The translations under genes were made by a program, and so were the position numbers. The notes below the pieces were generated by a model, which saw nothing but the letters and a program-made list of their open reading frames with translations, did not search any database and had not been told where the DNA came from. A stretch of DNA of 22,024 nucleotides from a virus. The stretch covers positions 1-22,024 of the IMG/VR virus record IMGVR_UViG_3300027779_000183. One strand, 5' to 3'. Shown piece by piece: positions 1,801 to 20,496 of this stretch (positions within the stretch are counted from its first letter, which is position 1; each line of letters starts with the position of its first letter).

Positions 1801-3903
1801 CTATTTTGGATATGCACCTCTATTAGGCATATTAACTGGTGCTTCTTTTGCCTGTTTATGACCAAAAGGTCTAGGTCTATACGATACTGGTATTTCCCTA
1901 GTCTTTTTATAATCATCTAAATACTCTGACTTTTCTGTATTAGCTTTTAATCTATACAGCACTTCTTGCCAAGCGTGTCTACAATAAATGCCACCTTTAA
2001 ATTTAAATAAGTCATAGGCTCTACCTTTATGTCCTAACACCTTATTTACACCATCTCTAGAGGCTCTATCAATATCCTCTAAGCGATAAACTACCTTATC
2101 AATAGCTAATCTCATCATATTATCACAAAAGTCTCTAGATTTACCTGTTTTAAGAGCCTTATTAGATTTCTTAAAATACCTATAACGTACCTTATAGAAA
2201 CTTTTATCTAGAATACTAAAGCCATTAGGGTCAGAATAGATTTCATCCTTTAATCCTATTAGTTTTTTTATCTTTGAAAGGGTACTTTTTTTAGGTTTTA
2301 TTAAAAGGTTTGCCCAATTATCTGTATCTAAGTTACCTTTATTATATTCCCTGTGGTCTACAATCTCCCAATCTTTAGACATCTTTCCACCTTCTAATGA
2401 ATTAAGGATTCCTTCACCTAATTCTTCTGTTAATTTAGGTTTTTCATATTCTTCGTGAGTCTCACAAGGCATATACCATACCTTACCATCTTCATCGTGT
2501 TCGTGATAACCCACACATCCTATTAATTTTGCTACTTCTAGTGCTTTTTCTTTAGATTCAAAGGCAGGTTTACCACCTATTTCTTTAAGATTAAATTCAT
2601 TCATATTAGATTTAATCCATCCGCATATTTTAGGTGCAGCTTTAGCACCATATCTAGCTGTTTGTTCCTTAATACATTTATCCCAAGCATAAGGTTCTAG
2701 TTCTACCTTACTCATTTCTATACCAGTTTCTTCTTCAATATCTTCATCATCCTGTAATGTAGGGTCTACTTCAGTAAACTCTAAAGGTTGAAGCGTTGTA
2801 AAGTATAGATTTAAGGCAATATCATTGTATGAAAGTAAAACATCAAAGGAATCAATCAAAAGTTCCTGAAAAGGTCTTATAACTGTGTTATCCATTAAAA
2901 GAGATGCTGTCTTGATTTCATCTGCATTGTTTCCTAGTCCTGTACTGTCTTTTATACCAAGAAGCATTGGACTAACAATCCTATGAGCAACCATTATCTT
3001 CTTAGAAGATTCATCACTTAAAAATTGGTATTGTTGATGTGCATCACTAAGCTGTACTGGAGTAATCGTTGACTCTTGTTCTTTATTATCATTAAAACTT
3101 AATATAAATTTTCCTGCATTTGATGTGCCACTAAACTTTTGAGCAATTTTAGACTCTATTAATCTTCTTTCTTCTTGGTTTGGAACTCCATTATTAAACG
3201 ATATAAGCATACTAGGTGAAAGACCGTTAAGTATATTGTTTAAATGGTAGTTAGATATTTCTTCTTCTAATTCAGCGTACTGTAAACCACCTTGATAATC
3301 TACAGGACTATAGTAATAAAACCCTGCTTTATAAGGTTTGATATACATTATCTCAATATTTTCCTTAGACATACCATATGCAGGTATTCTAAGCGGAATA
3401 TTGCTAGGCTTAATGTTTTGCCAATCTTTAAAATAGTAATATGCAGGAATTTCACCTTCTTCATTTGCTTTTTCTGCTCTTAATGTCTCTATTGGTAAAT
3501 GTTCAAGTAAAGATATTTTACTTCTGTCTTTAGAGTATACAACTTGAACCGCACATTGACCCATTAACTTTAAATCATAACATAATTTTCTAACTACATC
3601 CTTTTTGAACATAGAAATCATCTGAGCATATTGGTCAGGTTTTTTATTTGCATCTGTAGCGTTTAATCCCTTACCATATATTGCCTGACTGATTCCATTT
3701 ATAGCAGCATTGTTTGTAGGACTTCCATTATATCTATCTATCAAAAATTGAAAGTAATTATTGTCTGCTCCATATTCTACCCAATCCCTACTTTTTACTT
3801 CTATAATTTCAGGACTTGTATATGTACTAAGATTAACAAAACTTACTTCTGAAGTATTTTTTGCAAATTGCCCTATAGTATTTCTTTTTATTTTTTTTCT
3901 CAT
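1801..3903 (-). CDS. Portal protein with long C-terminal MuF-like extension
   Basis: 700 residues. Residues 1 to about 380 look like a phage portal: a Lys/Arg-rich start, RDWVEYGADNNYFQFLIDRY, NAAINGISQAIYGKGL, a central helical region, and the late VAHRIVSPMLLGIKDSTGLGNN typical of portals near the stem/crown. The portal is the dodecameric ring at the capsid vertex through which DNA is packaged and ejected. The remaining 320 residues are extra: an acidic linker (386-395), a Cys-containing segment DKCIKEQTARYG (408-419) with ICGWIK, a segment with YHEHDEDGKVWYMPC (466-480), and a C-terminal part (about 570-652) with SRDFCDNMMRLA and GGIYCRHAWQEVLYR. That end resembles the C-terminus of MuF-type head morphogenesis proteins. 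The ATG overlaps the stop of the upstream gene as TAATG. The portal lies downstream of the capsid gene, opposite to the common order. Confidence 0.85.
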   Translation of the reverse strand: MRKKIKRNTIGQFAKNTSEVSFVNLSTYTSPEIIEVKSRDWVEYGADNNYFQFLIDRYNGSPTNNAAINGISQAIYGKGLNATDANKKPDQYAQMISMFKKDVVRKLCYDLKLMGQCAVQVVYSKDRSKISLLEHLPIETLRAEKANEEGEIPAYYYFKDWQNIKPSNIPLRIPAYGMSKENIEIMYIKPYKAGFYYYSPVDYQGGLQYAELEEEISNYHLNNILNGLSPSMLISFNNGVPNQEERRLIESKIAQKFSGTSNAGKFILSFNDNKEQESTITPVQLSDAHQQYQFLSDESSKKIMVAHRIVSPMLLGIKDSTGLGNNADEIKTASLLMDNTVIRPFQELLIDSFDVLLSYNDIALNLYFTTLQPLEFTEVDPTLQDDEDIEEETGIEMSKVELEPYAWDKCIKEQTARYGAKAAPKICGWIKSNMNEFNLKEIGGKPAFESKEKALEVAKLIGCVGYHEHDEDGKVWYMPCETHEEYEKPKLTEELGEGILNSLEGGKMSKDWEIVDHREYNKGNLDTDNWANLLIKPKKSTLSKIKKLIGLKDEIYSDPNGFSILDKSFYKVRYRYFKKSNKALKTGKSRDFCDNMMRLAIDKVVYRLEDIDRASRDGVNKVLGHKGRAYDLFKFKGGIYCRHAWQEVLYRLKANTEKSEYLDDYKKTREIPVSYRPRPFGHKQAKEAPVNMPNRGAYPK

Positions 3904-4331
3904 TATGTTACAATATACTCATTATTATAAGCATCGGTTGTGATGTATTGCCCTTTGTTTATGTCATAATAGTCTCCATCTGTTTGGTTTACTAATTGGT
4001 CAGTACAAAATATCCTATCTCTGTATGCTACTACTTTAAAATTAGATGTATCATCCCATAATTCATTGAAGTTTTCCCATAAACTATAGTTTGTATTCCA
4101 AAAAGCATAGTCTGAATACATTTCAACATCATAGAAATGATTTAAAACTAATACAGGATTAAAAGTAAAATTAAATACTAAATAATTACCTGAAGTAGTT
4201 GCTGTAGATATAACGCTACTTGTGGTAACATTTGTAGAATCATCTCTATAAGAAAATGTAAACTCAGACTCATATTCTCTTGGTATTACCTTTAAAGTTT
4301 GTGCCGCAGCAGATGTAGTTAAAACTATCAT
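3903..4331 (-). CDS. Conserved Bacteroidota-phage structural protein, role unknown
   Basis: 142 residues from the ATG at 4331. A longer reading from a TTG at 4385 would start inside the terminator hairpin and is rejected. The N-terminus (MIVLTTSAAAQTLKVIPREY) is mildly hydrophobic but too short for a clear signal peptide. The rest is rich in Asn, Tyr, Thr and Asp and looks beta-stranded, with VAYRDRIFCTDQL and a YDINKGQY motif near the end. I associate this pattern with small structural proteins next to the portal in Bacteroidota phages, but no function is established. Its stop overlaps the portal start (TAATG), so the two are probably translationally coupled. A terminator and then a TRYAAA-N15-CGTTAT element lie immediately upstream, making this the first gene of the portal transcription unit. 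Confidence 0.6.
   Translation of the reverse strand: MIVLTTSAAAQTLKVIPREYESEFTFSYRDDSTNVTTSSVISTATTSGNYLVFNFTFNPVLVLNHFYDVEMYSDYAFWNTNYSLWENFNELWDDTSNFKVVAYRDRIFCTDQLVNQTDGDYYDINKGQYITTDAYNNEYIVT
4210..4236 (-). promoter_or_regulatory. Internal copy of the TACAAA-N15-CGTTAT element
   Basis: On the minus strand TACAAA (4231-4236) is followed by exactly 15 bases and CGTTAT (4210-4215), the same boxes and spacing as upstream of four structural genes. Here it lies inside the coding region, in the codons for STNVTTSSVIS, and no ATG follows at the usual six bases. It may be an internal promoter for the portal gene about 300 bases downstream, or a coincidence. Confidence 0.35.
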
Positions 4332-4364
4332 AACTATATAACGAAAATATCTAATGAATTTGTA
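4332..4364 (-). promoter_or_regulatory. Predicted phage late promoter before the portal unit
   Basis: Minus strand: TACAAA (4359-4364), 15 bases, CGTTAT (4338-4343), six bases (ATAGTT), then ATG at 4331. Identical boxes and spacing precede the genes starting at 7019, 7794 and 14512. It sits directly behind the terminator at 4370-4394, so a fresh start of transcription is expected here. If CGTTAT acts as a -10 box, the transcript would begin at or beside the ATG. Confidence 0.65.
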
Positions 4365-4369
4365 GAAAT

Positions 4370-4394
4370 AAAAAAAGCACCCCAAAAGGTGCTT
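4370..4394 (-). terminator. Rho-independent terminator after the head gene block
   Basis: On the minus strand a 7-bp stem (AAGCACC paired with GGTGCTT, loop TTTTGG) is followed by a run of seven T that starts with the last two stem bases. It lies 34 bases after the stop of the tail-tube-like gene and closes the capsid transcription unit. Confidence 0.85.
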
Positions 4395-4428
4395 AATTTA
4401 AATCAGAAAAGTATTATTAGTTTTGAAT

Positions 4429-4941
4429 CTAATTAGGAGTGATTTGCTCGGAATCTCCTGTTATTGCAGGAACTACAAAATAAGGTGCAGTTTCTTCCAT
4501 TCCTTCCATAACTAGGGTAAATCCTGATAAATCACCTGCTGCTGCACCAGTTACTATAGTGCCGCCAGTTACTTCCATTCCGTTTTCATAGCCACATAAG
4601 AATTGATTACCGTAGTAATCCTCTACTACAATAGTAGGTCTTGCAACAGCTATTAATTGAATTTCATTTTTTGTAGCATTATCTAAATAAGTTAATGTTA
4701 AATTTAGAGTTTGTGTATAAAATGTCGTTCCGTTATCCCTGCTAGATGTGATGCTAGTTTCTAAGCTAGAATTTCCTTTTACATCAAATTGAAACCACAC
4801 AGGTGTGTCAGTAAATGCAGTAATTATATTATCAGTTCCTATAGTAGCCACTACAGGAAAGTCAGCCATAAATACAGTCTTTATTCCTCCAAATGCTGAT
4901 TTGCAAGGTACTTTTCTTCCAGTTGTTAATAGACAAGCCAT
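4429..4941 (-). CDS. Tail-tube-like structural protein
   Basis: 170 residues, starting MACLLTTGRKVPCKSAFGG. The body is rich in Thr, Gly and Val with alternating hydrophobic residues: LNLTLTYLDNATKNEIQLIAVARP, then IVVEDYYGNQFLCGYENGMEVTGG, and a final GFTLVMEGMEE. This layout (a beta-sandwich with a late edge strand and conserved GMEVTGG and FTLVMEGME) is what I would expect for a tail tube or tube-like protein, and similar genes follow the capsid gene in other Bacteroidota phages. It would polymerise around the tape measure to form the tail interior. A head decoration or head-proximal protein is the main alternative, because the gene lies in the head block and not beside the tape measure. 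It follows the capsid gene and is followed by a terminator. Confidence 0.45.
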   Translation of the reverse strand: MACLLTTGRKVPCKSAFGGIKTVFMADFPVVATIGTDNIITAFTDTPVWFQFDVKGNSSLETSITSSRDNGTTFYTQTLNLTLTYLDNATKNEIQLIAVARPTIVVEDYYGNQFLCGYENGMEVTGGTIVTGAAAGDLSGFTLVMEGMEETAPYFVVPAITGDSEQITPN

Positions 4942-5014
4942 AATTTTTATTGTTTAAAAAAAAAGGGTAAGTAGGATTATACCTAACCTACCCTTCTTTA
5001 TAGTTAATTAATTT

Positions 5015-5971
5015 TTAAGAATAGTAAACTAAGTCCTCAGAAATACCATATTGAACACCTGCTGTAAATCTCATTATAAATCTACAATTTTGACTTCCAT
5101 CAATATCTTGCATATCTAAAACTTTTACTTCATTTAAGTTATTTAAAAGTCCAGTTCCAAAGTATAAGTTACTTCTTTGTGCTGCAAACATTGTATCTGT
5201 AGACATTCCAGGACAAACAAAGATTTTAACTCCGTTTACTGTAAGTGAACCATTATTCCACCATTGAGTACCTTGATTATTTACACCATTAGCACCTAAG
5301 CCATTTGCTGCAAATCCTCCTAATGCTTCAACATATGCTTTAGCAGTAGCACTTGGAATATAGATAAATAAATCTTCTTTTCCATAAAGTGCAACAGGGA
5401 TAGCATTGACTACTCTAGATAACTCTGCTATAACATTAGTAGCAGTAATTGCAATTCCTACCAAATCTTGAGCAACAGGAATATTTCCATCTGCTGTCAT
5501 TAAGGTTTCAAATCCATCATATTCTCCTGCTGTAGCAGCCACTCCTGTGAAGATAGTTTGCTCAGTTTTTTGAGCAACTTCAGCAGCCACGTGAGAAATC
5601 ATAAAGTCACTAAATTTAGGAGGTAAAGTTTGAGCCATACCATATCCCATAGATTGTGCTTCCCAATCGTTTACAAAATCTTTTTTACAAAGTTGTAAAT
5701 TTACCTGTAGTTCTGTTGGTTGTATTATTCTTTCAGTTAATGTAACTGTAGAATTTGGATTAAAATCACAAGTTGCATCAGACACCAAAGAGCCTGTTGC
5801 TAATTTTTTAATTACTTCTTTAAAAGCAATGTTTGGTTTTATTGATAGTCCACCATCATCTATAGTTGATGCACTAAATAAAGCTGCTGCGATATACTCA
5901 CCTGCAAACTCACCTGCATAGGTAGTTGTGATGTTAGTAGTAGTCGCTAATTCAATTTTTCTATTATTCAT
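5015..5971 (-). CDS. Major capsid protein (HK97 fold)
   Basis: 318 residues, a normal length for a capsid protein without a delta domain. It follows protease, scaffold and a small virion protein, the expected place. Features consistent with the HK97 fold are an N-terminal arm region (about 1-60), a long stretch with LTERIIQPTELQVNLQLCKKDF (about 77-98) leading to an E-loop/spine-like segment, DLFIYIPSATAKAYVEAL (about 201-218) as in the peptidase-free P domain, and a C-terminal VYGIS-like ending, here GVQYGISEDLVYYS. Self-assembles with the scaffold into the procapsid, then packages DNA. No crosslinking residue can be assigned by eye. The ATG at 5971 is preceded by an A/T-only leader with no Shine-Dalgarno, typical of this window. 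Confidence 0.8.
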   Translation of the reverse strand: MNNRKIELATTTNITTTYAGEFAGEYIAAALFSASTIDDGGLSIKPNIAFKEVIKKLATGSLVSDATCDFNPNSTVTLTERIIQPTELQVNLQLCKKDFVNDWEAQSMGYGMAQTLPPKFSDFMISHVAAEVAQKTEQTIFTGVAATAGEYDGFETLMTADGNIPVAQDLVGIAITATNVIAELSRVVNAIPVALYGKEDLFIYIPSATAKAYVEALGGFAANGLGANGVNNQGTQWWNNGSLTVNGVKIFVCPGMSTDTMFAAQRSNLYFGTGLLNNLNEVKVLDMQDIDGSQNCRFIMRFTAGVQYGISEDLVYYS

Positions 5972-5995
5972 TATTATTATATTTAAAAGTTTATA

Positions 5996-6415
5996 TTATG
6001 CTTCAAATGCCCAAATTCCTTGAGAACCACAAACATACCATTCAGTTGAACTAACTGCTGTTACTTCTACCCAATCTCCTTTTACAGAAGTTGCACCTGT
6101 ATTTCTAATGTATTTAGCTATTGTTCCTGCACTTGAAACTACAGTAGCACCTAAAGTGAAACTACCTAATACATAGTTGTTTGCGTGTGGTTTTACAGTT
6201 AAAGCATCTGTTCCTGCTGTTCCAATATTTCTGCATCTGTAAGTCAGACCAACAATATTAGAATTTAATTCAGGTAATGTCAATTGATGACTTCCTGAAG
6301 ATAAGTTTTGGTCAACACCTGCATCACCTGCGGCAAGACCTTTATTAGCTGAATGAGATTCTTGAGAAACCTGATTGTAGCTAATATCATTTGATGTATA
6401 TCTATATGTACTCAT
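5996..6415 (-). CDS. Putative head decoration or accessory virion protein
   Basis: 139 residues, rich in Ser, Gly, Thr and Ala, without a signal peptide or membrane segment. The N-terminus (MSTYRYTSNDISYNQ) is polar. The middle contains LPELNSNIVGLTYRCRN and the C-terminal half alternates beta-prone residues, ending GDWVEVTAVSSTEWYVCGSQGIWAFE. Small beta-rich proteins encoded between scaffold and capsid genes are often capsid decoration proteins that bind the outer shell at 3-fold sites, and that is the best guess from position and composition. I do not recognise a named family with certainty, and a tail or fibre-tip accessory protein would look similar. It is separated from the scaffold by ten bases and from the capsid by 24 bases. 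Confidence 0.45.
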   Translation of the reverse strand: MSTYRYTSNDISYNQVSQESHSANKGLAAGDAGVDQNLSSGSHQLTLPELNSNIVGLTYRCRNIGTAGTDALTVKPHANNYVLGSFTLGATVVSSAGTIAKYIRNTGATSVKGDWVEVTAVSSTEWYVCGSQGIWAFEA

Positions 6416-6425
6416 AATTATTAAT

Positions 6426-7019
6426 TTATTTGTTTAATTTGTTTAATACTCTGTCTAAAGTTGTTGTAATTTTTCCTTTACCATAAACTCTTTGAATGAC
6501 TTCATTAGTTTTAGCTTCAGGATTATGCTTAATCGCTTTTGCAGAAGGCTTAGACAATTCTTCTTTTATTTCTTCTTCTATCTTTTCTTCTTCTTTTTTA
6601 GATGCTTCTACTTTATCTTTTTTTAAGTCAGCAATTGCATCTTCAAGATTTTGTATTCTTTTTTCCATTCCTTTCCAATCAGCAACATCTGCTTCATCAT
6701 CTTCAGCTAATTCTTGTTCTTTTAAATCAGAAGTAATTTCTTCACCTTCTTCATCTTCTTTAGCAGGAACTTCATCTGAAACTTCTCTAACATCACCAAT
6801 AATACCTTCTTCTTCTACTACTAACATTCTAGAATCTTCAAGCATATATTCTCCTACTGGCATTGCAATTTTTTCATCATCTGTTTGAATAAAAATTTCT
6901 TTTCCTTTTTCAAAGGATTCAGCACTTACTATAGTACCGTTTTCTAACTTCATATCTTCTAATTTTACTTTTAGATTAAGAAGTGTTTTAATTTGATTTA
7001 ATAATTCATTTGATTTCAT
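6426..7019 (-). CDS. Capsid scaffolding protein
   Basis: 197 residues, highly charged. The N-terminal third (MKSNELLNQIKTLLNLKVKLE, then GTIVSAESFEKGKEIFIQTDDEKIAMPVGEYMLED) forms a small beta-like domain. Residues 70-165 are very acidic and predicted helical/coiled coil (EVSDEVPAKEDEEGEEITS, ENLEDAIADLKKDKVEASKKEE pattern), and the C-terminus is basic (TTTLDRVLNKLNK). An acidic coiled middle with a basic C-terminal capsid-binding end, encoded between the prohead protease and the capsid protein, is the standard layout of a phage scaffold. It would direct procapsid assembly and then be cut by the protease. The gene has its own TGCAAA-N15-CGTTAT element ending six bases before the ATG, so it can be transcribed separately from the tail genes upstream. 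Confidence 0.7.
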   Translation of the reverse strand: MKSNELLNQIKTLLNLKVKLEDMKLENGTIVSAESFEKGKEIFIQTDDEKIAMPVGEYMLEDSRMLVVEEEGIIGDVREVSDEVPAKEDEEGEEITSDLKEQELAEDDEADVADWKGMEKRIQNLEDAIADLKKDKVEASKKEEEKIEEEIKEELSKPSAKAIKHNPEAKTNEVIQRVYGKGKITTTLDRVLNKLNK

Positions 7020-7052
7020 AATATTATAACGTTTTAATTTTTAAATTTTGCA
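7020..7052 (-). promoter_or_regulatory. Predicted phage late promoter before the scaffold gene
   Basis: Minus strand: TGCAAA (7047-7052), 15 bases, CGTTAT (7026-7031), six bases (AATATT), ATG at 7019. It fits exactly in the short gap between the stop of the Cys-rich microprotein (7056) and the scaffold start. No terminator precedes it, so it would add transcripts for scaffold and capsid on top of read-through. Confidence 0.6.
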
Positions 7053-7055
7053 TTT

Positions 7056-7211
7056 TCAACTTGTTCTTGTTATTACACCTATCCCTTGATTCCACATATC
7101 ACCCTCACAACATTCTCTAGAATATGTCTTTTTATGTCTACATAAACATCCCCTTTCACTACCTTTAGGACTTGTGCGACTTGGAATAAATGTATTATTT
7201 GCTCTAGTCAT
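7056..7211 (-). CDS. Cys-rich microprotein between protease and scaffold
   Basis: 51 residues from ATG at 7211 to TGA at 7056-7058. The start overlaps the stop of the protease gene, which suggests translational coupling. The core is GCLCRHKKTYSRECCEGD followed by WNQGIG: four cysteines in the pattern C-x-C-x9-C-C, a spacing that could bind one zinc ion or form two disulfides. I recall short proteins of Bacteroidota phages with a similar CxC...YSxxCCxG...QGIG pattern near virion genes, but no function is known to me. The N-terminus (MTRANNTFIPSRTSPKGSER) is basic. The conserved-looking motif, the exact overlap and the fit before the next promoter argue for a real gene. Confidence 0.7.
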   Translation of the reverse strand: MTRANNTFIPSRTSPKGSERGCLCRHKKTYSRECCEGDMWNQGIGVITRTS

Positions 7212-7794
7212 TTGTTAATATTTTTTTAATTTCAGTAAGTATAACTTTTGCTTCTTTTTCTTTTTTATTCATTTCTACTTTATCAGCAAAATATCCTTCA
7301 ATACTAAAACCCTTTACTTTTCCATTTTTTACATAGTCATTCCAAACTTCATCATTATTTACTTTTACTGAACCCATCCAAGTTCCAACAGGTACATTAA
7401 ATCCATACTTTCTTGACTTGTCGTGAACTTCATCTTCTACTATCCAAGACTCAACCAAAGTTAATCCACTAAGTTGATGTTGATGTTCTAGAGTTGAATT
7501 GTTTTGATTACCATTTTTTAAGTACATTTGAGATGCTTTATTAATAGTATCTTTTGAAAAATAAATATAATATTCATCATCTTCTGACTGTCTGTAAATT
7601 GGTTTGTTAGGAACTAGCAATGCACCCATTAATATCTTTTTGTCTTTGGATATTTCAGCTAGTTTTATTTCTTCTATTTTTTCTGCTTTTAAAGCTAAGA
7701 AGTTTTCTTCAATAGCAGGATTTTCTACGATTGAAATAGCTTCTATTCCCATCATCTCTTGAGCCTCATCAAGTATCAATTCTATAATCTTCAT
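7204..7794 (-). CDS. XkdF-type prohead protease (peptidase S78 family)
   Basis: 196 residues. The N-terminus with IEAISIVENPAIEENFLALKA and the block GALLVPNKPIYR, then YYIYFSKDTI, match the XkdF/S78_2 family of phage head maturation proteases. The likely catalytic residues are His104 in TLEHQH and Ser164 in KGFSIEGYF; SWIVEDEVHDKS and VGTWMGSVKV are also typical. The enzyme cleaves scaffold and capsid N-termini during prohead maturation. A Lys/Glu-rich tail (172-196) may be self-cleaved or bind scaffold. The gene follows the tape measure and starts the head block, preceded by its own TACAAA-N15-CGTTAT element. The family assignment is firm; the catalytic residue assignment is by pattern only. 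Confidence 0.85.
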   Translation of the reverse strand: MKIIELILDEAQEMMGIEAISIVENPAIEENFLALKAEKIEEIKLAEISKDKKILMGALLVPNKPIYRQSEDDEYYIYFSKDTINKASQMYLKNGNQNNSTLEHQHQLSGLTLVESWIVEDEVHDKSRKYGFNVPVGTWMGSVKVNNDEVWNDYVKNGKVKGFSIEGYFADKVEMNKKEKEAKVILTEIKKILTND

Positions 7795-7827
7795 AATTGT
7801 ATAACGTATTTAATTTAACATTTTGTA
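7795..7827 (-). promoter_or_regulatory. Predicted phage late promoter before the protease gene
   Basis: Minus strand: TACAAA (7822-7827), 15 bases, CGTTAT (7801-7806), six bases (ACAATT), ATG at 7794. The element fills the whole gap between the tape-measure stop (7829) and the protease start. This is the point where tail genes give way to head genes, a sensible place for separate dosage control. Confidence 0.65.
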
Positions 7828-7828
7828 T

Positions 7829-9583
7829 TTATATAGCTGCACCTTCTATTATGTTACGTTCAAGGCTTTGAGCATTAGTAATATCATTGGATACAACATA
7901 AGCCTGAATGGTTTGTTGATTTTGTTGACCTATTGCATCTGCTAACTGATTAGTACCACTAGAACCTACAGAAGTAAATGATGGAGGTGATGGAGTTGCA
8001 GCCGCTTGATATGAAGGAATAGGAACACCACCACCACCTGCTCCTGCATTTGCTGCTGCTGTCTTTGCAGTTCCAACTGCTGAACGTATTGAACTTATTA
8101 TTCCAACTGCCTGTAAAGCGTATGCAATTAACATAGGTATATTTTGCGGGAAACCTATTTTAGCAGTATTGGCTGTACCCGCAGCTAGAGCAGCAGAACT
8201 TTCTGCTGCAACTAATGTAGAAAATGTTAAAGTTTTTTTAGCTTGCATTATCATTTCTTTTGCAGCCATTATTTGCTTTACAATTAATGCTGCTTTACCT
8301 GCTTTACTTTCAGCACCAAATAAACTTATAACTCCATCAACTGAAGCCTTCTTTGCATTGAAAATCATTTGCTCTATAGCTATTTCTTCATCTGCAATAG
8401 CTTTTTTTCTTTCTAATCTTTTATTTTCTTCATCTACTAATACTGCATCATCAATTACTTTCTTTGCAGCAACTTCTTCATCTATAATTTTTTGTTCTTC
8501 TTTTTCAGCTAATTTTTCTGCATCTTTAATTGCTTTTAATGCAGCAGCTTCTTCAGCTTTTAATGCTATAGTTTGACTAGTTACCTCTTTAGCTTTAGTT
8601 AGTTTAGCAGTTTCTAATTGTATTAATGTAGCTTTAAGTTGTGCTTCTTCTTCTAAGTCCTCTTTTGTAGATTTACTTAATTTGTTATCTTCAATTTTTG
8701 CTTTTAATCTTAACTGTGCTGCAAAGATTTCTTTGTTTGTAATTTCTTCTTCTAACCTTCCTGCTTCTTCTAAAAATCCTATTCTTTGTTTAGTAGTAAA
8801 CATTTCTCTATTAACTGCTTTTTCTAATAAATCTGCTCTATCTCTGTCGGCAGTTGCTCTATCTACTAATAACTTGCGTTCTAATTTATCTGCCTTTGCT
8901 CTCATATCAGCAATTTCTCCTGCTATCTTACCTTCTTCAACTATTTCTTTTACAAAACCTTTAACTCCAGTTGTAACTTTTTCTAAAGAATCTTCAACTC
9001 CTGTTAATACATCTACATAAGAACTGCCAGCTTCCTTCGCATCATCCATTGCTCCTTTGAAATCTCCTTGAAATACTTTCTTAATTGCTGAACCTAAAAA
9101 ACCAACCGTATCTATTGCCGCATTAAACCTATTTATTATTTGAGATTTTATCAATTCAACAAAACTATTCAACGCCTCTATTGGACTTGTAAATACCCAT
9201 ATTAATTTGTCTCCTAAATTCGCAAGTACGTCTATTAAATTGCCAGTAACAGAACCAATAACACCCATTAATTTTGAGAACTTATTTTGTCCTTCTTCTG
9301 ATGCTGTAAAGGCTGCTGACAATGAAACTATACCTATGACTAATGCACCTATTCCAGTAGCTATAATTGCACCTCGCATAGTTTTAAAACCAACAATAAC
9401 TCCTTTGATAGATTGACCTGCTGCTTTAAATCCTGAAACCATTCCACCAGTAGCTGAGTCTGCTGCTCCTTCTATTCCTGATATATCACTAGATGTTTGT
9501 TCTAAATCTTCATTTAAATCCTGAACGTTATCTTGTGCTTGTGCTGTATTTACTTTTAATGTAGTCTCTATTATCTTTGCCAT
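7829..9583 (-). CDS. Tail tape measure protein
   Basis: 584 residues. N-terminal coiled-coil segment (VQDLNEDLEQTSSDISGIEG), a hydrophobic stretch at about 70-92 (ATGIGALVIGIVSLSAAF), a further amphipathic region (about 100-180), a long charged coiled coil rich in Ala, Lys and Glu (about 215-410), then an Ala-rich hydrophobic segment (about 440-500) with NIPMLIAYALQAVGIISSI, a Gly/Pro hinge (GAGGGGVPIP) and a C-terminus with IQAYVVSNDITNAQSLERNII. This layout, and that C-terminus in particular, is typical of tape measures of Bacteroidota phages. It sets tail length and helps DNA cross the cell envelope. It is rather short, which suggests a short siphovirus tail by the usual length relation. 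The opposite-strand open frames here are composition artefacts. Confidence 0.85.
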   Translation of the reverse strand: MAKIIETTLKVNTAQAQDNVQDLNEDLEQTSSDISGIEGAADSATGGMVSGFKAAGQSIKGVIVGFKTMRGAIIATGIGALVIGIVSLSAAFTASEEGQNKFSKLMGVIGSVTGNLIDVLANLGDKLIWVFTSPIEALNSFVELIKSQIINRFNAAIDTVGFLGSAIKKVFQGDFKGAMDDAKEAGSSYVDVLTGVEDSLEKVTTGVKGFVKEIVEEGKIAGEIADMRAKADKLERKLLVDRATADRDRADLLEKAVNREMFTTKQRIGFLEEAGRLEEEITNKEIFAAQLRLKAKIEDNKLSKSTKEDLEEEAQLKATLIQLETAKLTKAKEVTSQTIALKAEEAAALKAIKDAEKLAEKEEQKIIDEEVAAKKVIDDAVLVDEENKRLERKKAIADEEIAIEQMIFNAKKASVDGVISLFGAESKAGKAALIVKQIMAAKEMIMQAKKTLTFSTLVAAESSAALAAGTANTAKIGFPQNIPMLIAYALQAVGIISSIRSAVGTAKTAAANAGAGGGGVPIPSYQAAATPSPPSFTSVGSSGTNQLADAIGQQNQQTIQAYVVSNDITNAQSLERNIIEGAAI

Positions 9584-9714
9584 TTTATTTCATTTTTAAT
9601 TTGTTTGATTGCAGATTTGATTCCTCTAGGTAAAGCATATTTACCCTGTGCAATTCTTATGTTTTCAGTTTCTCCATTTACCATTAACAAAAGGTCTAAT
9701 ATATTTTTTATCAT
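9571..9714 (-). CDS. Small basic protein just before the tape measure
   Basis: 47 residues from ATG at 9714 to TAA at 9571-9573. The ATG overlaps the stop of the 682-residue tail gene (TAATG), and the 3' end overlaps the tape-measure start by 13 bases. The sequence has a hydrophobic helix (MIKNILDLLLMVNG), a polar middle (ENIRIAQGKYALPRG) and a basic amphipathic helix (IKSAIKQIKNEIKWQR). No family is recognised. In many phages the position before the tape measure is held by tail assembly chaperones, but this protein is far smaller. Double overlap with both neighbours supports that it is translated. Confidence 0.6.
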   Translation of the reverse strand: MIKNILDLLLMVNGETENIRIAQGKYALPRGIKSAIKQIKNEIKWQR

Positions 9715-11762
9715 TATACTACATTTAAAATTTCAATACTACTTTCTCCACTTATTAGATTAGTTGTAAGTGAATTAATTTTATAATTCTGCTGTCTTAC
9801 TTTTAGTTTATCATTTAATTGTAAATTATAAATAATTTGTAAAGGTAAAAATGCTTTTATTTTTGTTAATCTTCTAGATGAATTAAAAACATCAGAGATA
9901 TAAGTGAGATAATTGTTTTGAAACAATGTTCCTGTAAAACTACTATCTAAAGTATACTCATTTACTTCTAAACTAAAATTTATATTTGTAGTGCTTACAG
10001 ATGAATCAATATCTAAACTATTAGATGGAATTATATAATCATTTATTGTTGCAGCTACTGAAGGTGAAGTTAATATAGCTATATCAGTACCATTTTCAAT
10101 TTTATAACCATAAAATATTAAAGGTTTACCAAAATAAGACTGCTGATTATCATTTACAAACCTTCCATATTGTATTGTCTTATATGCTGTAGTTCCTGCA
10201 TCTGCTAACCTTTCAAATTGCATATGTTCAAAAGGAACGCTTACTTTATATGTGTTATTAGGAGCATCAAAAGTTTCATTGTTTAAAGTATATCTTAAAG
10301 TTCCCCATCCTATGTTTTCAAGTTGCTCATATTGTTTAGCTAATAATGTTCCTCTACCTGAATATGAAAATTCTATTTCTTTAAATGGTAAAGCTACATT
10401 TACTTGACTGGTTTTTACATCTAGATATTTATCAATATCCCATACTACAGATGAAGCACTATAATAACTATCTAAAGTTTTTACTACTATGGTATTAGTT
10501 TCATCTACATAAGCTGTGAGATTAAACATTTTAAAAATGCCTGTAAGGAAATCTATTACTTTTATTTCAGGAATTTGTTGAGTTATTATAAAATCAAAAG
10601 TAGTTACAGCTTCAAATTGTAAAGTAGAATCCCATTGGTCTGACCACCCTGTACTTGCTCCAGTACCTGCAATTATCCATTCAATATCTCCTGCACTAAA
10701 TATTACAGAACCAGTAGAGCCTATTGATACCGTATAATCAGCAGGAGTTAAAGAACCCATTTCAGTTTTTCCTATTGTTTGTGTTCCAATTAAATCAGTA
10801 ATTTGATAAAATAAAGAACCATTTTTAAAAATTTGTACATTATAAGGAATAGTATTTGTTCCACTTGTAGGAGTTAGTACTAAATCATTTTGAAGTAAAG
10901 CACCGTATTGAATATTTTGTGTAAAGATTCTTAATGCTCCATTAACCATACCAGTATCAGGAGTTCCAACAGTATTAGTAAATTCAGGAACTTGATTATA
11001 ACTTATTGATACCTGTTGAGCAGGTTCTACATCTCCAGTTTTTCTATGTAGCCACATATATAAACTTCCAAATGGTGCAGAATTATTTAAAAAGTCATTA
11101 GAGAAAACTATGTTTGAACTAAATCCATTTGCTACTGCGTATCTTGATTCTATTGCATCTATAATAGGATTTAATCTTATTGCAAATTTAAGCTGTGACC
11201 ATAAAACGCCATTTGTTCCTGAAGGATATAAGTTTCCTGAAGTATTTGTTTCTGATGAATTATAATAGAGTTGGTCTGTATGAGTTATTAATGGAGTAAT
11301 GATAGTTCCTAAACTACCCTCTAAGTTGTTTTTAATATTTGTAGAATTATAGATTAAATTATAAGAATTTAAAGTTGATAGAGAAGATAATAAGTCCTCA
11401 CCTAAAAGGTCTTTTAAGTTTATTGTGTTTCCAAAGAATGTAATTCTATAGTTATAGGCTTTGTTCTTTTTCATTTCTACTCCTTCAAGTTTTATGAAAC
11501 CAGTTTTAAAAGGAATATAATTTAATTCTATAGATGCATTTACTTTATTACGAGCATCAAACCCTCCTGAAATATCAAAGTTATAATAGTGTTTAAAAAT
11601 TTTGTTATTTGTAGAAGAAGCAGGTAAGGTAAATGTTTGAGTAAACTCTGTAAATATCTTAGATATATCTTTTACATTCTGTATTGTTTGAGTCATTGAA
11701 ACAGATTCATCACTGAATAAATCTATTCTTTCACCACTTATATAGAGTTGTAATTTTTGCAT
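9714..11762 (-). CDS. Large tail/baseplate-like structural protein
   Basis: 682 residues. The N-terminal part (LQLYISGERIDLFSDESVSMTQTIQNVKDISKIFTEFTQTFTLPAS compressed here to key motifs: RIDLF, QNVKDISKIFTEF, FTLPAS) and the block with NASIELNYIPFKTGFIKLEGV (residues about 76-96) and ITFFGNTINLKDLLGED are, as far as I recall, conserved in a large tail protein of Bacteroidota phages. Near residue 420 the segment FLTGIFKMFNLTAYVDETNTIVVKTL resembles baseplate hub-like proteins that build on a flexible receptor platform. The rest is Asn/Thr/Ser-rich beta structure. Probable role: tail-tip or baseplate hub. Starts with ATG overlapping the upstream stop (TAATG). The exact equivalent (distal tail or tail-associated protein) cannot be settled by eye. 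Confidence 0.6.
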   Translation of the reverse strand: MQKLQLYISGERIDLFSDESVSMTQTIQNVKDISKIFTEFTQTFTLPASSTNNKIFKHYYNFDISGGFDARNKVNASIELNYIPFKTGFIKLEGVEMKKNKAYNYRITFFGNTINLKDLLGEDLLSSLSTLNSYNLIYNSTNIKNNLEGSLGTIITPLITHTDQLYYNSSETNTSGNLYPSGTNGVLWSQLKFAIRLNPIIDAIESRYAVANGFSSNIVFSNDFLNNSAPFGSLYMWLHRKTGDVEPAQQVSISYNQVPEFTNTVGTPDTGMVNGALRIFTQNIQYGALLQNDLVLTPTSGTNTIPYNVQIFKNGSLFYQITDLIGTQTIGKTEMGSLTPADYTVSIGSTGSVIFSAGDIEWIIAGTGASTGWSDQWDSTLQFEAVTTFDFIITQQIPEIKVIDFLTGIFKMFNLTAYVDETNTIVVKTLDSYYSASSVVWDIDKYLDVKTSQVNVALPFKEIEFSYSGRGTLLAKQYEQLENIGWGTLRYTLNNETFDAPNNTYKVSVPFEHMQFERLADAGTTAYKTIQYGRFVNDNQQSYFGKPLIFYGYKIENGTDIAILTSPSVAATINDYIIPSNSLDIDSSVSTTNINFSLEVNEYTLDSSFTGTLFQNNYLTYISDVFNSSRRLTKIKAFLPLQIIYNLQLNDKLKVRQQNYKINSLTTNLISGESSIEILNVV

Positions 11763-12778
11763 TATCTAACATTATTTATGTAATCAAAAGCATCTTCAAA
11801 ATCTATAGTATATTCTATTAGCCTATCATTAACAGAGGTCTTATGAATCATTTCACTTGTTTTTACATTTACTGGAACAACTTCATTAACAGCAGGGTCA
11901 TTTGTTTCAGGTCTTGTCAACCACACAAACTCAGACAATAATAATTGCTCAAAATATTCATTAGCAAATTCAGGGTAATATCCACTACTTAAAAGGTTAG
12001 ACTGAATACCTCCTTTATTAAAGATTTTCTTAGTAGCTGAATTAGTTGAATAACTAGATGCTCCACCTGTTGAGGTTATAGTATTAGCTTGAAATTTTTC
12101 TACAGTTGTAGATGTTGAAGTTACTTTTTTAAGAAAGAAATATAAATCTTGTAATGCTCCATACTTATTTACAAAAGTTATTTTTCTACCATCTCCATAT
12201 TTAGTGCAACTTATTCTAACTATGTTTAAATCTACTCCTGCTACAGTACCTTGTAATACAATAGCAGTTGATGAAAAAGCAGGATAAGATATGGTATGCC
12301 CTGTGTCTATTGCAGGTGCTTGACCTGCTGTATTGTCAGGAAGATAAACATAGAATTTGTCAGTTGTGCTAACAGTATCTTGATTAGTTTCTTCTATTAA
12401 CCAAGTAGGCTTAGACCTATCAGGAAAAGGAATATCAGGATTTACACCTTCCATAAAAACACCATAACCCTCAAAACCATACGCAGTAATCCCTGTGCTA
12501 CTTCCTACCTGTGAACCTCCTGCATTTGCAGCAGTCCAAAAACTAGTAGTTAATAAAATGGTAATAGTTTGTGCTGTGTATGTTCCATTAAAAGTAATGG
12601 TTAAGTAATCTCTACATAATTCAGATATTTCAAATATTACATCTGTTCCTGCTGTACAGTCTTTAATAATAGTATATCTTAAAGTTCCATCTATAGTAAT
12701 AGTTACTTTAGCAGATAGAGCAGTTGCAGGTGCTGTAGGACTATGATAATGCGGACTTCGTAATGCTATATTTGCCAT
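11762..12778 (-). CDS. Tail structural protein, Bacteroidota-phage type
   Basis: 338 residues starting MANIALRSPHYHSPTAPA. The N-terminal domain repeats beta-strand patterns (KVTITIDGTLRYTIIKD, then VIFEISELCRDYLTITFNGTY), which looks like an immunoglobulin-like or fibronectin-like fold. The middle has IVRISCTKYGDGRKITFVNKYGALQDLYFFLKK, and the C-terminus YEQLLLSEFVWLTRPETND (after FANE) and IDFEDAFDYINNVR. I recognise the general pattern from tail modules of Bacteroidota phages, where it sits immediately before the large baseplate-like protein, but no precise function is known to me. Its stop overlaps the next start as TAATG, so the two are likely made in a fixed ratio and may interact. Confidence 0.5.
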   Translation of the reverse strand: MANIALRSPHYHSPTAPATALSAKVTITIDGTLRYTIIKDCTAGTDVIFEISELCRDYLTITFNGTYTAQTITILLTTSFWTAANAGGSQVGSSTGITAYGFEGYGVFMEGVNPDIPFPDRSKPTWLIEETNQDTVSTTDKFYVYLPDNTAGQAPAIDTGHTISYPAFSSTAIVLQGTVAGVDLNIVRISCTKYGDGRKITFVNKYGALQDLYFFLKKVTSTSTTVEKFQANTITSTGGASSYSTNSATKKIFNKGGIQSNLLSSGYYPEFANEYFEQLLLSEFVWLTRPETNDPAVNEVVPVNVKTSEMIHKTSVNDRLIEYTIDFEDAFDYINNVR

Positions 12779-12784
12779 TGTTGT

Positions 12785-13312
12785 TTATTTTGTTTCTCCA
12801 AATACTATGTTATTCTCTATGTCTAAAACAAAAGCATCTACTAAGTTATTTGCCATCCTTTGTAAACCTTTATCAAATGGTTTTGTAAAAAACATAGTTG
12901 CTTTTAATCCTTTTCTATAAATGCTGTTTACTATAATATACTGCATAGACTTATAACTCATAAACCTACCTTTTTTGTCTTTCCATTGAAATCTCTTTTG
13001 TCTTAACCATTTACCTATTCCTTGTGTTAATCCTCCTGATTTACCTGTTCCCCTTCCAAATCTAAAAGGTGAATTGTTAGATTGTGAATAAGTAGATTTT
13101 ATTCCTTTAACACCTTTGTCTTGAAATGCTCCATAATCTTCCATTAAGAACTCTAAAAGAAAAGCATCTTTTTCAACATCTAAATCATAAGTTATAGATT
13201 GATATAATTTACCTGAAGATTTGTTTCTTCCTTTAGTTAAATTGCTTCTAGATTGTTGAACTACATACTTTGCATATTTAGTGAGAACCTGTTCTGTTTT
13301 TTGAAAATCCAT
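12785..13312 (-). CDS. HK97 gp10-like neck / tail-completion protein
   Basis: 175 residues from the ATG at 13312, which overlaps the stop of the upstream gene (TAATG); a TTG two codons upstream is not needed. The protein is basic, with an N-terminal helix (VLTKYAKYVVQQSRSNL), then SSGKLYQSITYDLDV and FLMEDYGAFQDKGVKG, the pattern seen in gp10-like head-tail joining proteins: a helix, an xLxxSI strand and a Y-G-x-x-x-x-x-G motif. A Lys/Arg-rich middle (GKWLRQKRFQWKDKKG) and a C-terminal helix follow. It would sit at the head-tail interface, closing the tail or joining it to the connector. Neighbour of the tail-terminator-like gene, which supports this role. Confidence 0.6.
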   Translation of the reverse strand: MDFQKTEQVLTKYAKYVVQQSRSNLTKGRNKSSGKLYQSITYDLDVEKDAFLLEFLMEDYGAFQDKGVKGIKSTYSQSNNSPFRFGRGTGKSGGLTQGIGKWLRQKRFQWKDKKGRFMSYKSMQYIIVNSIYRKGLKATMFFTKPFDKGLQRMANNLVDAFVLDIENNIVFGETK

Positions 13313-13782
13313 TAGCAAATAGTTATATCATTATAAATTAAAATATCCATTGTAGAGTTCCATCCTGCTAACTGATTCTCAAACCTATCATAGAAAGGTT
13401 CAAGGCTAGGATTCCCATCTAACTGGTATAATGTCCTGTGTAAGTCACCCTTTCTAAGCACTTGAATAAGTTTATTAAGAACAGCTAACTGAGTGTTTAA
13501 AATATCTTGTTCGTTGTTGTTTCCTGTAAAGATATTAGTAGTAGCATTTTTAGACTGGTCTACAATATCCATTGCTAAAACTGATATATTAAAACGTAAT
13601 ACATTTTCTTCATCTGTTACGTTATTAATCATAATATGACTTAAAGGAAATATGTCTTGTTTCTGTAAATTGATTTGAGATAAATCCCCTGATGTTACAG
13701 TATTAACATCTATATTTTTTAATAACTCTGTTTTAATAGTATCGGTAATTTGATAAAATCCTCTAACCCCTTGATTACTCAT
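13312..13782 (-). CDS. Tail-terminator-like / neck protein
   Basis: 156 residues. It has RGFYQITDTIKTELLKN, then VNTVTSGDLSQINLQKQDIFPLSHI with IMINNVTDEENVLRFNISVLAMDIVD, a helical middle and FYDRFENQLAGWNSTMDILIYNDITIC at the C-terminus. The alternation of an N-terminal helix, long beta strands and a closing strand ending DITIC is what I associate with a tail-completion protein common in Bacteroidota phages. Such proteins cap the tail tube and present it to the neck. Its ATG overlaps the stop of the -1 frame of the upstream chaperone-like gene (ATGA), and its stop overlaps the start of the gp10-like gene. The exact equivalence to known tail terminators is inferred. Confidence 0.5.
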   Translation of the reverse strand: MSNQGVRGFYQITDTIKTELLKNIDVNTVTSGDLSQINLQKQDIFPLSHIMINNVTDEENVLRFNISVLAMDIVDQSKNATTNIFTGNNNEQDILNTQLAVLNKLIQVLRKGDLHRTLYQLDGNPSLEPFYDRFENQLAGWNSTMDILIYNDITIC

Positions 13783-14040
13783 AGTTTGTTTTTAATTTGC
13801 TTTGCTTCTAATTCATTCTTGTCTTTCATATATGCTAACATCATAAGACATTCGTGTACATTTAATTTGGTGATATGTTCAATTCGTGTAATATCTCCTT
13901 TAGCGAGTCCGTAAATTGAGTTATACCATCCCCACTTTTCTGAGAATTGAGAAAGTCTGTCAATGCCGCCTTCTCCTTGTTCTCCAAAGAGTTCAGCATA
14001 ATTTGTGATAAGTCCATCCCTAAATGATAAAAAAAAAAAA
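13779..14040 (-). CDS. -1 frame extension of the tail-chaperone-like gene
   Basis: Reading on from the T12 run in the -1 frame gives about 86 residues: FFLSFRDGLITNYAELFGE, GGIDRLSQFSEKWGWYNSIYG, LAKGDITRIEHITKLNVHEC, LMMLAYMKDKNELEAKQIKNKL. This looks like a genuine protein end: the WGWYNSIYGLAKGD and HITKLNVHECLMMLAYMKDKNE patterns are typical of a protein family I recall from Bacteroidota phages. It ends at a TGA (13779-13781) that overlaps the ATG of the next gene as ATGA, the junction style of this operon. The fused product from 14512 would be 244 residues, against 216 without shifting. This is the long (G-T-like) form if the gene is a tail assembly chaperone. Confidence 0.75.
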
Positions 14041-14512
14041 TAGAACTGTTTACCGCATCCATAGGCATATTCAATAATTGACTATTAGATTCTATCTTAT
14101 AATCTTCTATGGAATACTTATGTTTAAACTTATTTGTTATGGGTCTGTAAAGAACATTCATAGCTTTCTCTATATTATCCCAGTCTCCAATATAAGTATC
14201 CAAATCAATATACTCTCCTAGAGATAAATCATCTAAGGAAGGATTGAATCCATACTCTACATTATCAAGTTTAAACTGCTTTACTAGTTCAGGTTTTTGT
14301 TCAAATAATTCTAATAATATCTTACAGATTTCTTGAGAATCTTTAAACTTTAACCGCATCACTTCTGTAAATTTTATGTTACAGAAAATCTCTATCATTT
14401 TTGTTTGTAGAAACTTTTCATCATCATTATCCTTTTGAATTTTAACAAAATGTTTGTACTGTTTTAAGGTGATTTCGTTAAGGCTCGTTGGAACTGTGAT
14501 TTTAACTTTCAT
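13862..14512 (-). CDS. Tail assembly chaperone-like protein, frame-0 product
   Basis: 216 residues from ATG at 14512; an upstream GTG at 14575 lies in the terminator and is rejected. N-terminal motifs: ITVPTSLNEITLKQYKHFVKI, then a helical region and VEYGFNPSLDDLSLGEYIDLDTYIGDW, KAMNVLYRPITNKF. After residue 157 the T12 run is reached; frame 0 continues for 59 residues to a stop at 13862 while the -1 frame continues to 13779. A two-product gene at the head of the tail module is the hallmark of tail assembly chaperones (gpG/gpGT type), which hold the tape measure during tube polymerisation; that role is inferred from architecture, as the sequence itself is not a family I can name firmly. It opens the late structural unit, behind a terminator and a TATAAA-N15-CGTTAT element. 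Confidence 0.65.
   Translation of the reverse strand: MKVKITVPTSLNEITLKQYKHFVKIQKDNDDEKFLQTKMIEIFCNIKFTEVMRLKFKDSQEICKILLELFEQKPELVKQFKLDNVEYGFNPSLDDLSLGEYIDLDTYIGDWDNIEKAMNVLYRPITNKFKHKYSIEDYKIESNSQLLNMPMDAVNSSIFFFYHLGMDLSQIMLNSLENKEKAALTDFLNSQKSGDGITQFTDSLKEILHELNISPN
14029..14040 (-). other. T12 slippery run, predicted frameshift or slippage site
   Basis: Twelve consecutive T on the coding strand encode part of SSIFFFYH in frame 0. A T-only run permits -1 ribosomal slippage (repeated T TTT TTT) and also RNA polymerase slippage. Both frames are open beyond it. Because long homopolymers are also error-prone in sequencing, an assembly miscount that breaks one continuous gene must be excluded. 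Confidence 0.7.
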
Positions 14513-14545
14513 AATTATATAACGTAATATAAGAAGAAATTTATA
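14513..14545 (-). promoter_or_regulatory. Predicted phage late promoter before the tail block
   Basis: Minus strand: TATAAA (14540-14545), 15 bases, CGTTAT (14519-14524), six bases (ATAATT), ATG at 14512. It starts three bases after the T run of the terminator at 14548-14577. It would drive the long structural unit from the chaperone-like gene onwards. Confidence 0.65.
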
Positions 14546-14547
14546 AC

Positions 14548-14577
14548 AAAAAAAAAGGCGGTCATTTCTAACCACCT
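14548..14577 (-). terminator. Rho-independent terminator after the packaging block
   Basis: Minus strand: AGGTGGT pairs with ACCGCCT (one G-T wobble), eight-base loop, then nine T. It lies 25 bases after the stop of the 86-residue gene and separates packaging from structural transcription. Confidence 0.85.
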
Positions 14578-16815: not shown

Positions 16816-17087
16816 GAACCAAATTTAATTAGGTCTTTAAAGTTGATGTTTAAGCCTTCACTAGAATTGATGTCTACTGATTCTTTAGGTTTACCATAAC
16901 GATAACCAAAGTATAAGGTCATTGCTCTACTATCACCTTTAGATATTTGTATTCCTAGAGTTTTAATAACTTCATCATTATCAATTAACATATCTAACCT
17001 TTCAATCAGCTTTAATTCATCTGCTTTTGTAGGTCTACCTGCAAATCCTTTAGTAGAATGTCCTCCGTTGTTTTTTCGTTTATCCAT
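16812..17087 (-). CDS. terS: Terminase small subunit (putative)
   Basis: 91 residues, short for a small terminase. It starts basic (MDKRKNNGGHSTKGFAGRPTKADE), where GRPTKADE resembles an AT-hook-like or helix-turn-helix entry, then LKLIERLDMLIDNDEVIKTL and the conserved-looking FGYRYGKPKES near the C-terminus, a pattern I associate with small proteins encoded directly before the large terminase in Bacteroidota phages. It would recognise the packaging site and regulate TerL. Coupled to terL by an ATGA overlap. Preceded by about 60 bases of pure A/T-rich DNA with a weak CGTTAT element at 17123. Confidence 0.65.
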   Translation of the reverse strand: MDKRKNNGGHSTKGFAGRPTKADELKLIERLDMLIDNDEVIKTLGIQISKGDSRAMTLYFGYRYGKPKESVDINSSEGLNINFKDLIKFGS

Positions 17088-17122
17088 AATTAATATAATA
17101 TTAACTAATTAATATTTTTAAT

Positions 17123-17149
17123 ATAACGATTTTAAATTAGATTTTTTAT
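17123..17149 (-). promoter_or_regulatory. Weak CGTTAT-type element upstream of the terminase genes
   Basis: CGTTAT (17123-17128) lies 35 bases before the small-terminase ATG. At the 15-base spacing the upstream box reads ATAAAA, sharing only the AAA of the TRYAAA consensus. It could be a weaker late promoter that gives a real 5' leader; the intergenic stretch 17088-17149 holds nothing else I can name. Confidence 0.3.
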
Positions 17150-17870: not shown

Positions 17871-17880
17871 TTTAATTATT

Positions 17881-20005: not shown

Positions 20006-20496
20006 ATAATATTTTTTAATTCTTCTCGTTTAATATAATAAGCATTAGTATATTTCATTACTTTATAATTCCATTTATTAATATCTTTATAATCAACAAA
20101 ATAAAATTCAGCTTCTGTTTTATTTAAAATATATATGAACCAATATTTATCAATTTTATTTAATCCTTTTTCGTGTGCTTCTTTATTCACTAATAGATGA
20201 GCATTATTAAAATGTAATGTTGATTTAATATCTATCCTTTTATTTCTAAAAATAATATCAGCATTTTTTGATGGATATAAATCTAACAACTTAGTCATTT
20301 GAAATTCAATATTTTTATTTGTTAAATAATCTACTGCAATTAATTCTCCTAAAATTCCTATAGTATCAACGTGAGTATTTTTATCTCCCCTATCAAATCT
20401 AGGATTTTTTTCTAATATATTTTTATTAATAATACTTCTAGCATAACCAATCTGTTCTGATATTTCCCAAAATGATTTAGGATATTTATAATTCAT
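20002..20496 (-). CDS. PD-(D/E)XK-like nuclease domain protein
   Basis: 164 residues. The pattern GILGELIAVDYL (helix with Glu51), then PSKNADIIFRNKRIDIKST (Asp80, then Asp89-Ile-Lys91) matches the core of the PD-(D/E)XK restriction-endonuclease fold: a helix Glu, an Asp at the hairpin and a D/E-x-K strand. The C-terminal part (about 115-160) has aromatic strands (KYWFIYILNKTEAEFYFVDYKDI), typical of the closing sheet in small homologues of this fold. It could be a repair/recombination nuclease or act against host DNA. It overlaps the sigma gene stop (ATGA) and is followed by the tiny DCGC protein. No specific family was confirmed. Confidence 0.6.
   Translation of the reverse strand: MNYKYPKSFWEISEQIGYARSIINKNILEKNPRFDRGDKNTHVDTIGILGELIAVDYLTNKNIEFQMTKLLDLYPSKNADIIFRNKRIDIKSTLHFNNAHLLVNKEAHEKGLNKIDKYWFIYILNKTEAEFYFVDYKDINKWNYKVMKYTNAYYIKREELKNII

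Follow-up and report, generated by a model that had tools for sequence, protein, structure and literature searches.

A two-box element ahead of late-type genes in a phage group: a probable promoter, with a phage-encoded ECF-type sigma factor as its likely reader

The IMG/VR viral record IMGVR_UViG_3300027779_000183 (the window; all 22,024 nucleotides of it were analyzed) contains four copies of a two-part element, TRYAAA-N15-CGTTAT-N6-ATG. All are on the minus strand, and each runs into the start codon of a structural gene (Table 1). We propose with considerable confidence that this element serves as a bipartite late promoter in a widespread group of marine phages of the Bacteroidota type, and that it is read by the host's RNA polymerase carrying a phage sigma factor of the extracytoplasmic function (ECF) type. 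The typical (modal) promoters would then give messages that are leaderless or nearly so, with leaders of about 0–4 nucleotides (nt).

In more detail, the promoter would comprise a -35 box (TRYAAA[A]), a 15-base spacer, a -10 box (CGTTAT), and the initiator TA. The sigma gene sits in the early region of the genome, where the replication genes are, and once made, its product would steer the host polymerase towards four or five operons, namely those for terminase, tail, protease, scaffold/capsid, and neck/portal. Transcription from the modal promoters would begin on the A of the ATG or a few bases from it, while the terminase transcript would have a normal leader. Terminators just upstream of two of the promoters would insulate those units.

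The element and its recurrence in relatives

The initial annotation of this DNA had reported four copies of the element, each exactly six bases before an ATG, and all four are where it placed them. It had also roughly estimated that both boxes at one spacing should arise by chance well below once. If the ATG is disregarded, the coding strand contains 5 such pairs of boxes, whereas first-order Markov sequences modeled on that strand contain a mean of 0.003. With N6-ATG included, there are 4 copies, compared to none in 1,000 such sequences. CGTTAT alone has 8 occurrences on the coding strand and 5 on the opposite one. As had been noted, two of the copies directly follow terminators (the hairpins at 14577–14556 and 4394–4375). 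The list of four had omitted two sites: a fifth exact match to both boxes at 4236–4210, and a CGTTAT at 17128–17123 that is probably a fifth late promoter.

The pattern recurs ahead of the same late operons in relatives. We identified 207 stretches of viral contigs that encode relatives of the window's sigma factor and kept 80 of these. Among 30 records that were chosen on sigma homology alone, every one contains AAA-N15-CGTTAT, with 3–6 sites per near-complete genome. Nearly all of these sites are on one strand, the strand of the structural genes; a reversed control gave about 1 match per genome. When we varied the spacing from 5 to 30, counts on the sense strand peaked at 14–15 (63 and 81 sites) and were about 12 at most other spacings, while antisense counts were flat. 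The recurrent slots are ahead of the small terminase-like gene, the tail gene (whose product begins MKxKIxVP), the protease gene (MKIIELILDE), the scaffold-like gene (MxxxEMLNQIKTLL), and the gene before the portal gene (MIVLTTSA). Across viral contigs, at least 120 stretches contain the full pattern, versus 3 if the -10 box is scrambled.

The sigma gene and the motif also co-occur in sets that were not selected by sigma homology. All 8 of the motif-selected contigs of at least 26 kilobases (kb) encode a homologue of the sigma factor, three of them a distant one (E = 7e-33, 7e-33, and 6e-12). Similarly, among contigs selected by the capsid protein, all 7 that reach 26 kb encode the sigma factor and have matches to the motif. 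Many shorter motif-selected fragments have no sigma homologue.

We then compared the regions upstream of orthologous genes in 34 records after removing redundancy, taking both the four late slots and the starts of seven other genes. CGTTAW is present in 72 of 73 late-slot upstreams but in just 2 of 134 upstreams of the other genes. By slot, it is found in 22/22 upstreams at 14512 (with the ATG at distance 6 in 20), in 18/19 at 7794 (distance 6 in 17), in 16/16 at 7019 (distance 6, 9, or 10, with one at 21), and in 16/16 at 4331 (distances 6–8). ECF-type promoters have two boxes with a fixed spacer of 15–17 bases, and 69 of the 72 late-slot promoters retain AAA at N15. The distance to the ATG is less strict: it is 6 in 50 of the 72, 7 in 8, 8 in 1, 9 in 3, and 10 in 7, with 13, 14, and 21 once each, and it is never below 6. 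The exact distance of six describes the four copies in the window, while the orthologous promoters of relatives mostly fall within 6–10. The small-terminase slot is conserved as well: in 7 of 12 non-redundant cases, CGTTAW lies 26–39 bases ahead of the start.

Two further box pairs in the window are probably coincidences. The match at 4236–4210 lies inside the gene that starts at 4331 and is absent from relatives, and we set it aside. Within the portal gene, there is a GATAAA-N15-CGTTAT at 2208–2182 on the minus strand (match at 2187), and record G031 has GACAAA at the same place. This pair overlaps conserved codons (KVRYRYFKK in the window), and is probably a coding coincidence. A search of the window against Rfam gave no match.

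A phage sigma factor, the predicted start site, and other explanations

By profile and by predicted fold, the gene at 20493–20969 encodes a two-domain sigma factor of the ECF type. It lies between a gene for an AAA-type ATPase and other early-type genes. Sigma70_r2 (PF04542 in Pfam) matches 22 of 28 relatives, with a best E-value of 8e-5; the window's own protein (E = 0.015, 15.5 bits) scores below the curated cutoff. The NCBIfam model sigma70-ECF (TIGR02937) also matches 22 of the 28. The AlphaFold model of the window's protein (mean predicted confidence, pLDDT, of 86.6) has two helical domains only, and the nearest solved structures are ECF sigma factors, mostly within transcription complexes. 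In this model, residues 1–75 resemble sigma2 of SigR (Z = 9.4, root-mean-square deviation of 2.1 over 71 residues), and residues 95–158 resemble region 4 of Escherichia coli sigma-E bound to -35 DNA (Z = 8.7, deviation of 1.9 over 64 residues). As in group IV sigma factors, there is a sigma2 and a sigma4 with a helix-turn-helix, and neither sigma1.1 nor sigma3. In such factors, sigma2 contacts the core polymerase and the -10 box, and the helix-turn-helix of sigma4 contacts the -35 box. This protein is the likely reader of the late promoters. Using tblastn with the window's sigma factor, we found no relative in a collection of phage records at the sensitivity used, and when we scanned the genome collection using an alignment of the sigma factors, no cellular genome gave a relative.

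To locate the start site, we considered promoters with an ATG at a distance of seven or more, of which 30 are non-redundant. Counting from the C of CGTTAT, position 12 is a purine in 29 of the 30 and position 11 is a T in 22; these sequences are related, so the counts do not translate to a formal probability. In the distance-6 promoters, this T-purine step coincides with the position of the A of the ATG. If the T-purine step is the initiator, with +1 at position 12, then the A of the ATG is +1 in the distance-6 promoters. The simplest inference from the sequences is that their mRNAs are leaderless. Leaders would be 1–4 nt in the 7–10 class and about 20–29 nt for the terminase transcript.

A less likely variant, which does not exclude our proposal, is that the promoter is real and transcription starts a few bases further upstream, giving leaders of roughly 1–5 nt. 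ECF promoters have spacers of 15–17 bases and start sites 3–6 nt past the -10 box (PMC10880074), and distances of 4–5 at two genes (see below) suggest starts nearer to the -10 box. On the other hand, the T-purine step at positions 11–12 is conserved regardless of where the ATG is.

The initial annotation had proposed a phage-specific late promoter that yields leaderless or nearly leaderless mRNA. The comparative evidence strongly supports this: the element recurs before the same late operons, its boxes keep their spacing while the ATG distance varies, it is biased to one strand and co-occurs with a phage sigma gene, and there is a conserved initiator at the predicted +1. But the annotation overlooked the likely cause, the sigma gene at 20493–20969. 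It also argued that such mRNAs would fit a host group that hardly uses Shine-Dalgarno sequences, and in that form this argument is not right. Although Flavobacterium johnsoniae lacks Shine-Dalgarno sequences, leaders exceed 10 nt in 87% of its predicted transcripts (PMC6847099). A survey based on Pribnow boxes detected leaderless genes in just 1 of 37 genomes of Bacteroidetes/Chlorobi (PMC3160421). A late class that starts at or near the AUG would differ from the presumed habit of the host, because leaders in the host group are usually longer than 10 nt.

We also considered that the late promoter might be read by an alternative sigma factor of the host, or by the host polymerase with a phage activator, with the phage's sigma-like protein having another role. 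Bacteroidota, the presumed hosts, carry many ECF sigma factors, and the link between the sigma gene and the motif is one of sequence co-occurrence. We consider this improbable given how complete the co-occurrence is (8/8 motif-selected and 7/7 capsid-selected contigs, and 30/30 sigma-selected records). Furthermore, the boxes have an ECF-like geometry, and CGT in the -10 box is an ordinary feature of ECF promoters. And the -7 element (TAnnTTTG) that is recognized by the primary sigma factor of the host group, sigma-ABfr, is absent at all four elements in the window.

It is quite unlikely that the element is instead a Kozak-like signal for translation initiation within the mRNA. Many copies do have an A at -3, which helps initiation in Flavobacterium (PMC6847099), and the ATG is at exactly six in all four window copies. 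However, we take the element to be a promoter because the two boxes are fixed relative to each other while the ATG drifts, from 6 to 10 bases at most late-slot promoters and from 26 to 39 bases ahead of the terminase gene. A translation signal would keep its place relative to the ATG, whatever the transcription unit. The initial annotation had reasoned that such a signal would not need the upstream box, and that box is retained at N15. A translation signal also does not explain why genes within the same operons lack the element (132 of 134 control starts are without it), or why two copies lie directly behind terminators. Finally, although the genome is AT-rich and CGTTAT by itself is frequent, the comparative data refute a chance origin (4 copies versus 0 in the Markov sequences, and at least 120 stretches versus 3 with the scrambled box) as well as duplication of one ancestral upstream region (spacers and flanks differ among slots and genomes while the boxes stay), so that we give these almost no weight.

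Several observations weigh against our proposal. First, the sigma scores are below the curated cutoffs for the families (15.5 bits for the window's protein versus 24 bits for Pfam). Second, outside of the late slots, there are distances below the floor of six: 4 at a ParB-like gene in G005 and G008, and 5 at gp35 of phage P12024S (described below). Either the start site shifts slightly in these cases or the start codons are different. Third, a gene at 4941 (170 amino acids) lies behind a conserved terminator hairpin and has no such promoter, so our scheme does not account for its expression; possibly, it is expressed through controlled read-through. Fourth, we infer the leaderlessness and the late timing, and similarly the host: relatives that infect Nonlabens suggest a host group of the Bacteroidota type.

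A cultured example and comparison to known systems

Via a capsid protein that is 28% identical to the window's, we reached a cultured phage, P12024S (Inhavirus), which infects Nonlabens (Persicivirga) sp. IMCC12024. Just before its terminase genes is a gene (gp33) that is annotated as Sigma-70 region 2, and the protein matches NCBIfam's sigma70-ECF (E = 5e-7). CGTTAA-N6-ATG is found ahead of gp05, gp08, gp41, gp44, and gp45, and CGTTAC-N6-ATG is found ahead of gp01. In most of these promoters, AAAACAAA lies about 14 bases upstream of the -10 box. Phage P12024L has the same arrangement, as do environmental relatives of its sigma factor. Like the window, P12024S and P12024L combine a sigma gene with CGTTA[A/T]-N6-ATG and an upstream AAAACAAA before late genes. 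Unlike in the window, the spacing is one base shorter and the -10 box is CGTTAA; the element is not annotated in their records. The P12024 sigma factor has diverged too far for tblastn with the window's protein to detect it. As a comparison, we examined the flavobacterial phages 11b, phi10:1, and P2559S, which we took to lack the sigma factor based on their annotations and tblastn searches. These show no peak of ATGs at distance 6 and have 0–1 paired sites, versus 4 in P12024S. As a side note, P12024L has a cassette that resembles those for base modification at 16207–18674 (a 2OGFeDO oxygenase, a glucosyltransferase, and a methyltransferase), where P12024S has other genes.

The window's sigma factor resembles bacterial ECF sigma factors (of the sigma-E, SigW, SigH, or SigL type) in being a sigma2-sigma4 protein with a bipartite promoter and a spacer in the 15–17 range. 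It differs in being phage-borne and, presumably, devoted to late genes. Also, the -35 box of bacterial ECF promoters is of the AAC type, while here it is TRYAAA.

Phage ECF sigma factors for middle or late genes are known from phiEco32 (gp36) and its relatives (SU10, Privateer, and Kuravirus), with a promoter motif of tAATGTATAtA located 6–8 nt upstream of the start (PMC4281155; PMC7881722). Promoters read by ECF sigma factors of phages have been reported to show an extended -10 box without a recognizable -35 box (PMC5333181). As in phiEco32, a phage-encoded sigma factor of the ECF type presumably directs the host polymerase to late genes. Unlike in phiEco32, both boxes are strict, the -10 box is CGTTAT instead of tAATGTATA, and the start codon appears to be coupled to +1.

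Leaderless mRNAs are known from other phages, such as lambda cI and the Thermus phage phiYS40. In these, the start codon lies at or close to the 5' end, as it would here. In the present system, however, leaderlessness would extend to nearly the whole late regulon and would be tied to a single phage sigma factor. Phage transcripts have been remarked to be often leaderless (PMC5312081). Our literature searches, in open-licence papers, found no description of this promoter. Although phage ECF sigma factors themselves are known, a bipartite phage ECF system that is coupled to the start codon appears to be undescribed.

We are nearly evenly divided on a broader claim, and lean slightly towards doubt: that abundant marine phages of Bacteroidota have evolved a late regulon in which one ECF sigma factor of the phage ties the geometry of the promoter to the position of the start codon. 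Nearly every late operon would then open with a leaderless AUG, and late mRNAs would bypass the leader-dependent initiation of the host. If true, this bypass would favor translation of phage messages late in infection. Apart from this claim, the proposed system supplies a concrete switch to late genes in marine phages of a large, mostly uncultured group, consisting of one sigma gene and one promoter, both of which can be recognized from sequence. With the promoter, operons can be mapped and start codons called in hundreds of contigs, with no need for experiments. The cultured pair of Nonlabens and P12024S makes it testable if bacteria that do not use Shine-Dalgarno sequences translate leaderless messages efficiently. 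And the sigma factor with its short promoter could act as an independent expression switch in laboratory strains of Bacteroidota.

Genes behind the proposed promoters and nearby features

The presumed targets in the window are listed in Table 1. The scaffold-like protein and the protease share a weak match to phrog_24921; we assign the scaffold role from its position before the gene for the major capsid protein (MCP). The protein of 142 amino acids (aa) has no family match in searches of Pfam and phrog, and its position just before the portal gene suggests a neck-like role.

Table 1. Promoters, terminators, and genes of interest in the window.
Feature	Positions	Strand	Details	Basis
Late promoter	14512..14545	-	element 14545-14519; -35 TATAAA 14545-14540, N15, -10 CGTTAT 14524-14519, ATG 14512	orthologous upstreams
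Late promoter	7794..7827	-	element 7827-7801; -35 TACAAA, N15, -10 CGTTAT 7806-7801, ATG 7794 (protease)	orthologous upstreams
Late promoter	7019..7052	-	element 7052-7026; -35 TGCAAA, N15, -10 CGTTAT 7031-7026, ATG 7019 (scaffold-like)	orthologous upstreams
Late promoter	4331..4364	-	element 4364-4338; -35 TACAAA, N15, -10 CGTTAT 4343-4338, ATG 4331	orthologous upstreams
Probable fifth late promoter	17123..17149	-	CGTTAT 17128-17123 and an A-rich -35-like stretch, with the ATG of 17087 (small-terminase-like) 35 bases further on	
Fifth exact TRYAAA-N15-CGTTAT match	4210..4236	-	within the 142-aa gene that starts at 4331; not followed by a start codon	
Terminator hairpin	14556..14577	-	just upstream of the 14512 promoter	
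Terminator hairpin	4375..4394	-	just upstream of the 4331 promoter	
ECF-type sigma factor	20493..20969	-	158 aa, sigma2 and sigma4 only; presumed promoter reader	profiles and AlphaFold fold
Tail-related protein	13862..14512	-	216 aa	phrog_32199 (E 4e-23); phrog_166, tail (E 0.005)
Prohead serine protease	7204..7794	-	196 aa	Pfam Peptidase_S78_2 (E 1e-17)
Scaffold-like protein	6426..7019	-	197 aa; the capsid gene follows	position before MCP; weak phrog_24921 match
Neck-like protein (by position)	3903..4331	-	142 aa, just before the portal gene	position

The terminator-like hairpin ahead of the gene at 4941 is G/C-rich (GGGTAGG...CCTACTTACCC followed by a run of T, within 4941–5010 on the minus strand), and it is present in all relatives seen. 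In the terminase leaders of several relatives (such as G021, G023, G035, and G044), there is a conserved string near ATTGAATAAACAA, about 10–20 bases past the -10 box.

A ParB-like gene (MIEKVKINKI...) in G005–G008, G027, G031, G037, and G048 has its own late promoter. It lies within the terminase region, ahead of the tail gene, and the distance to its ATG is 6, except in G005 and G008. In the early region of the window, also on the minus strand, the genes for a protein with the C-terminal DNA-binding domain of DnaA (17881–18426) and for a protein with the N-terminal domain of a dATP/dGTP diphosphohydrolase (17286–17966) overlap or adjoin.

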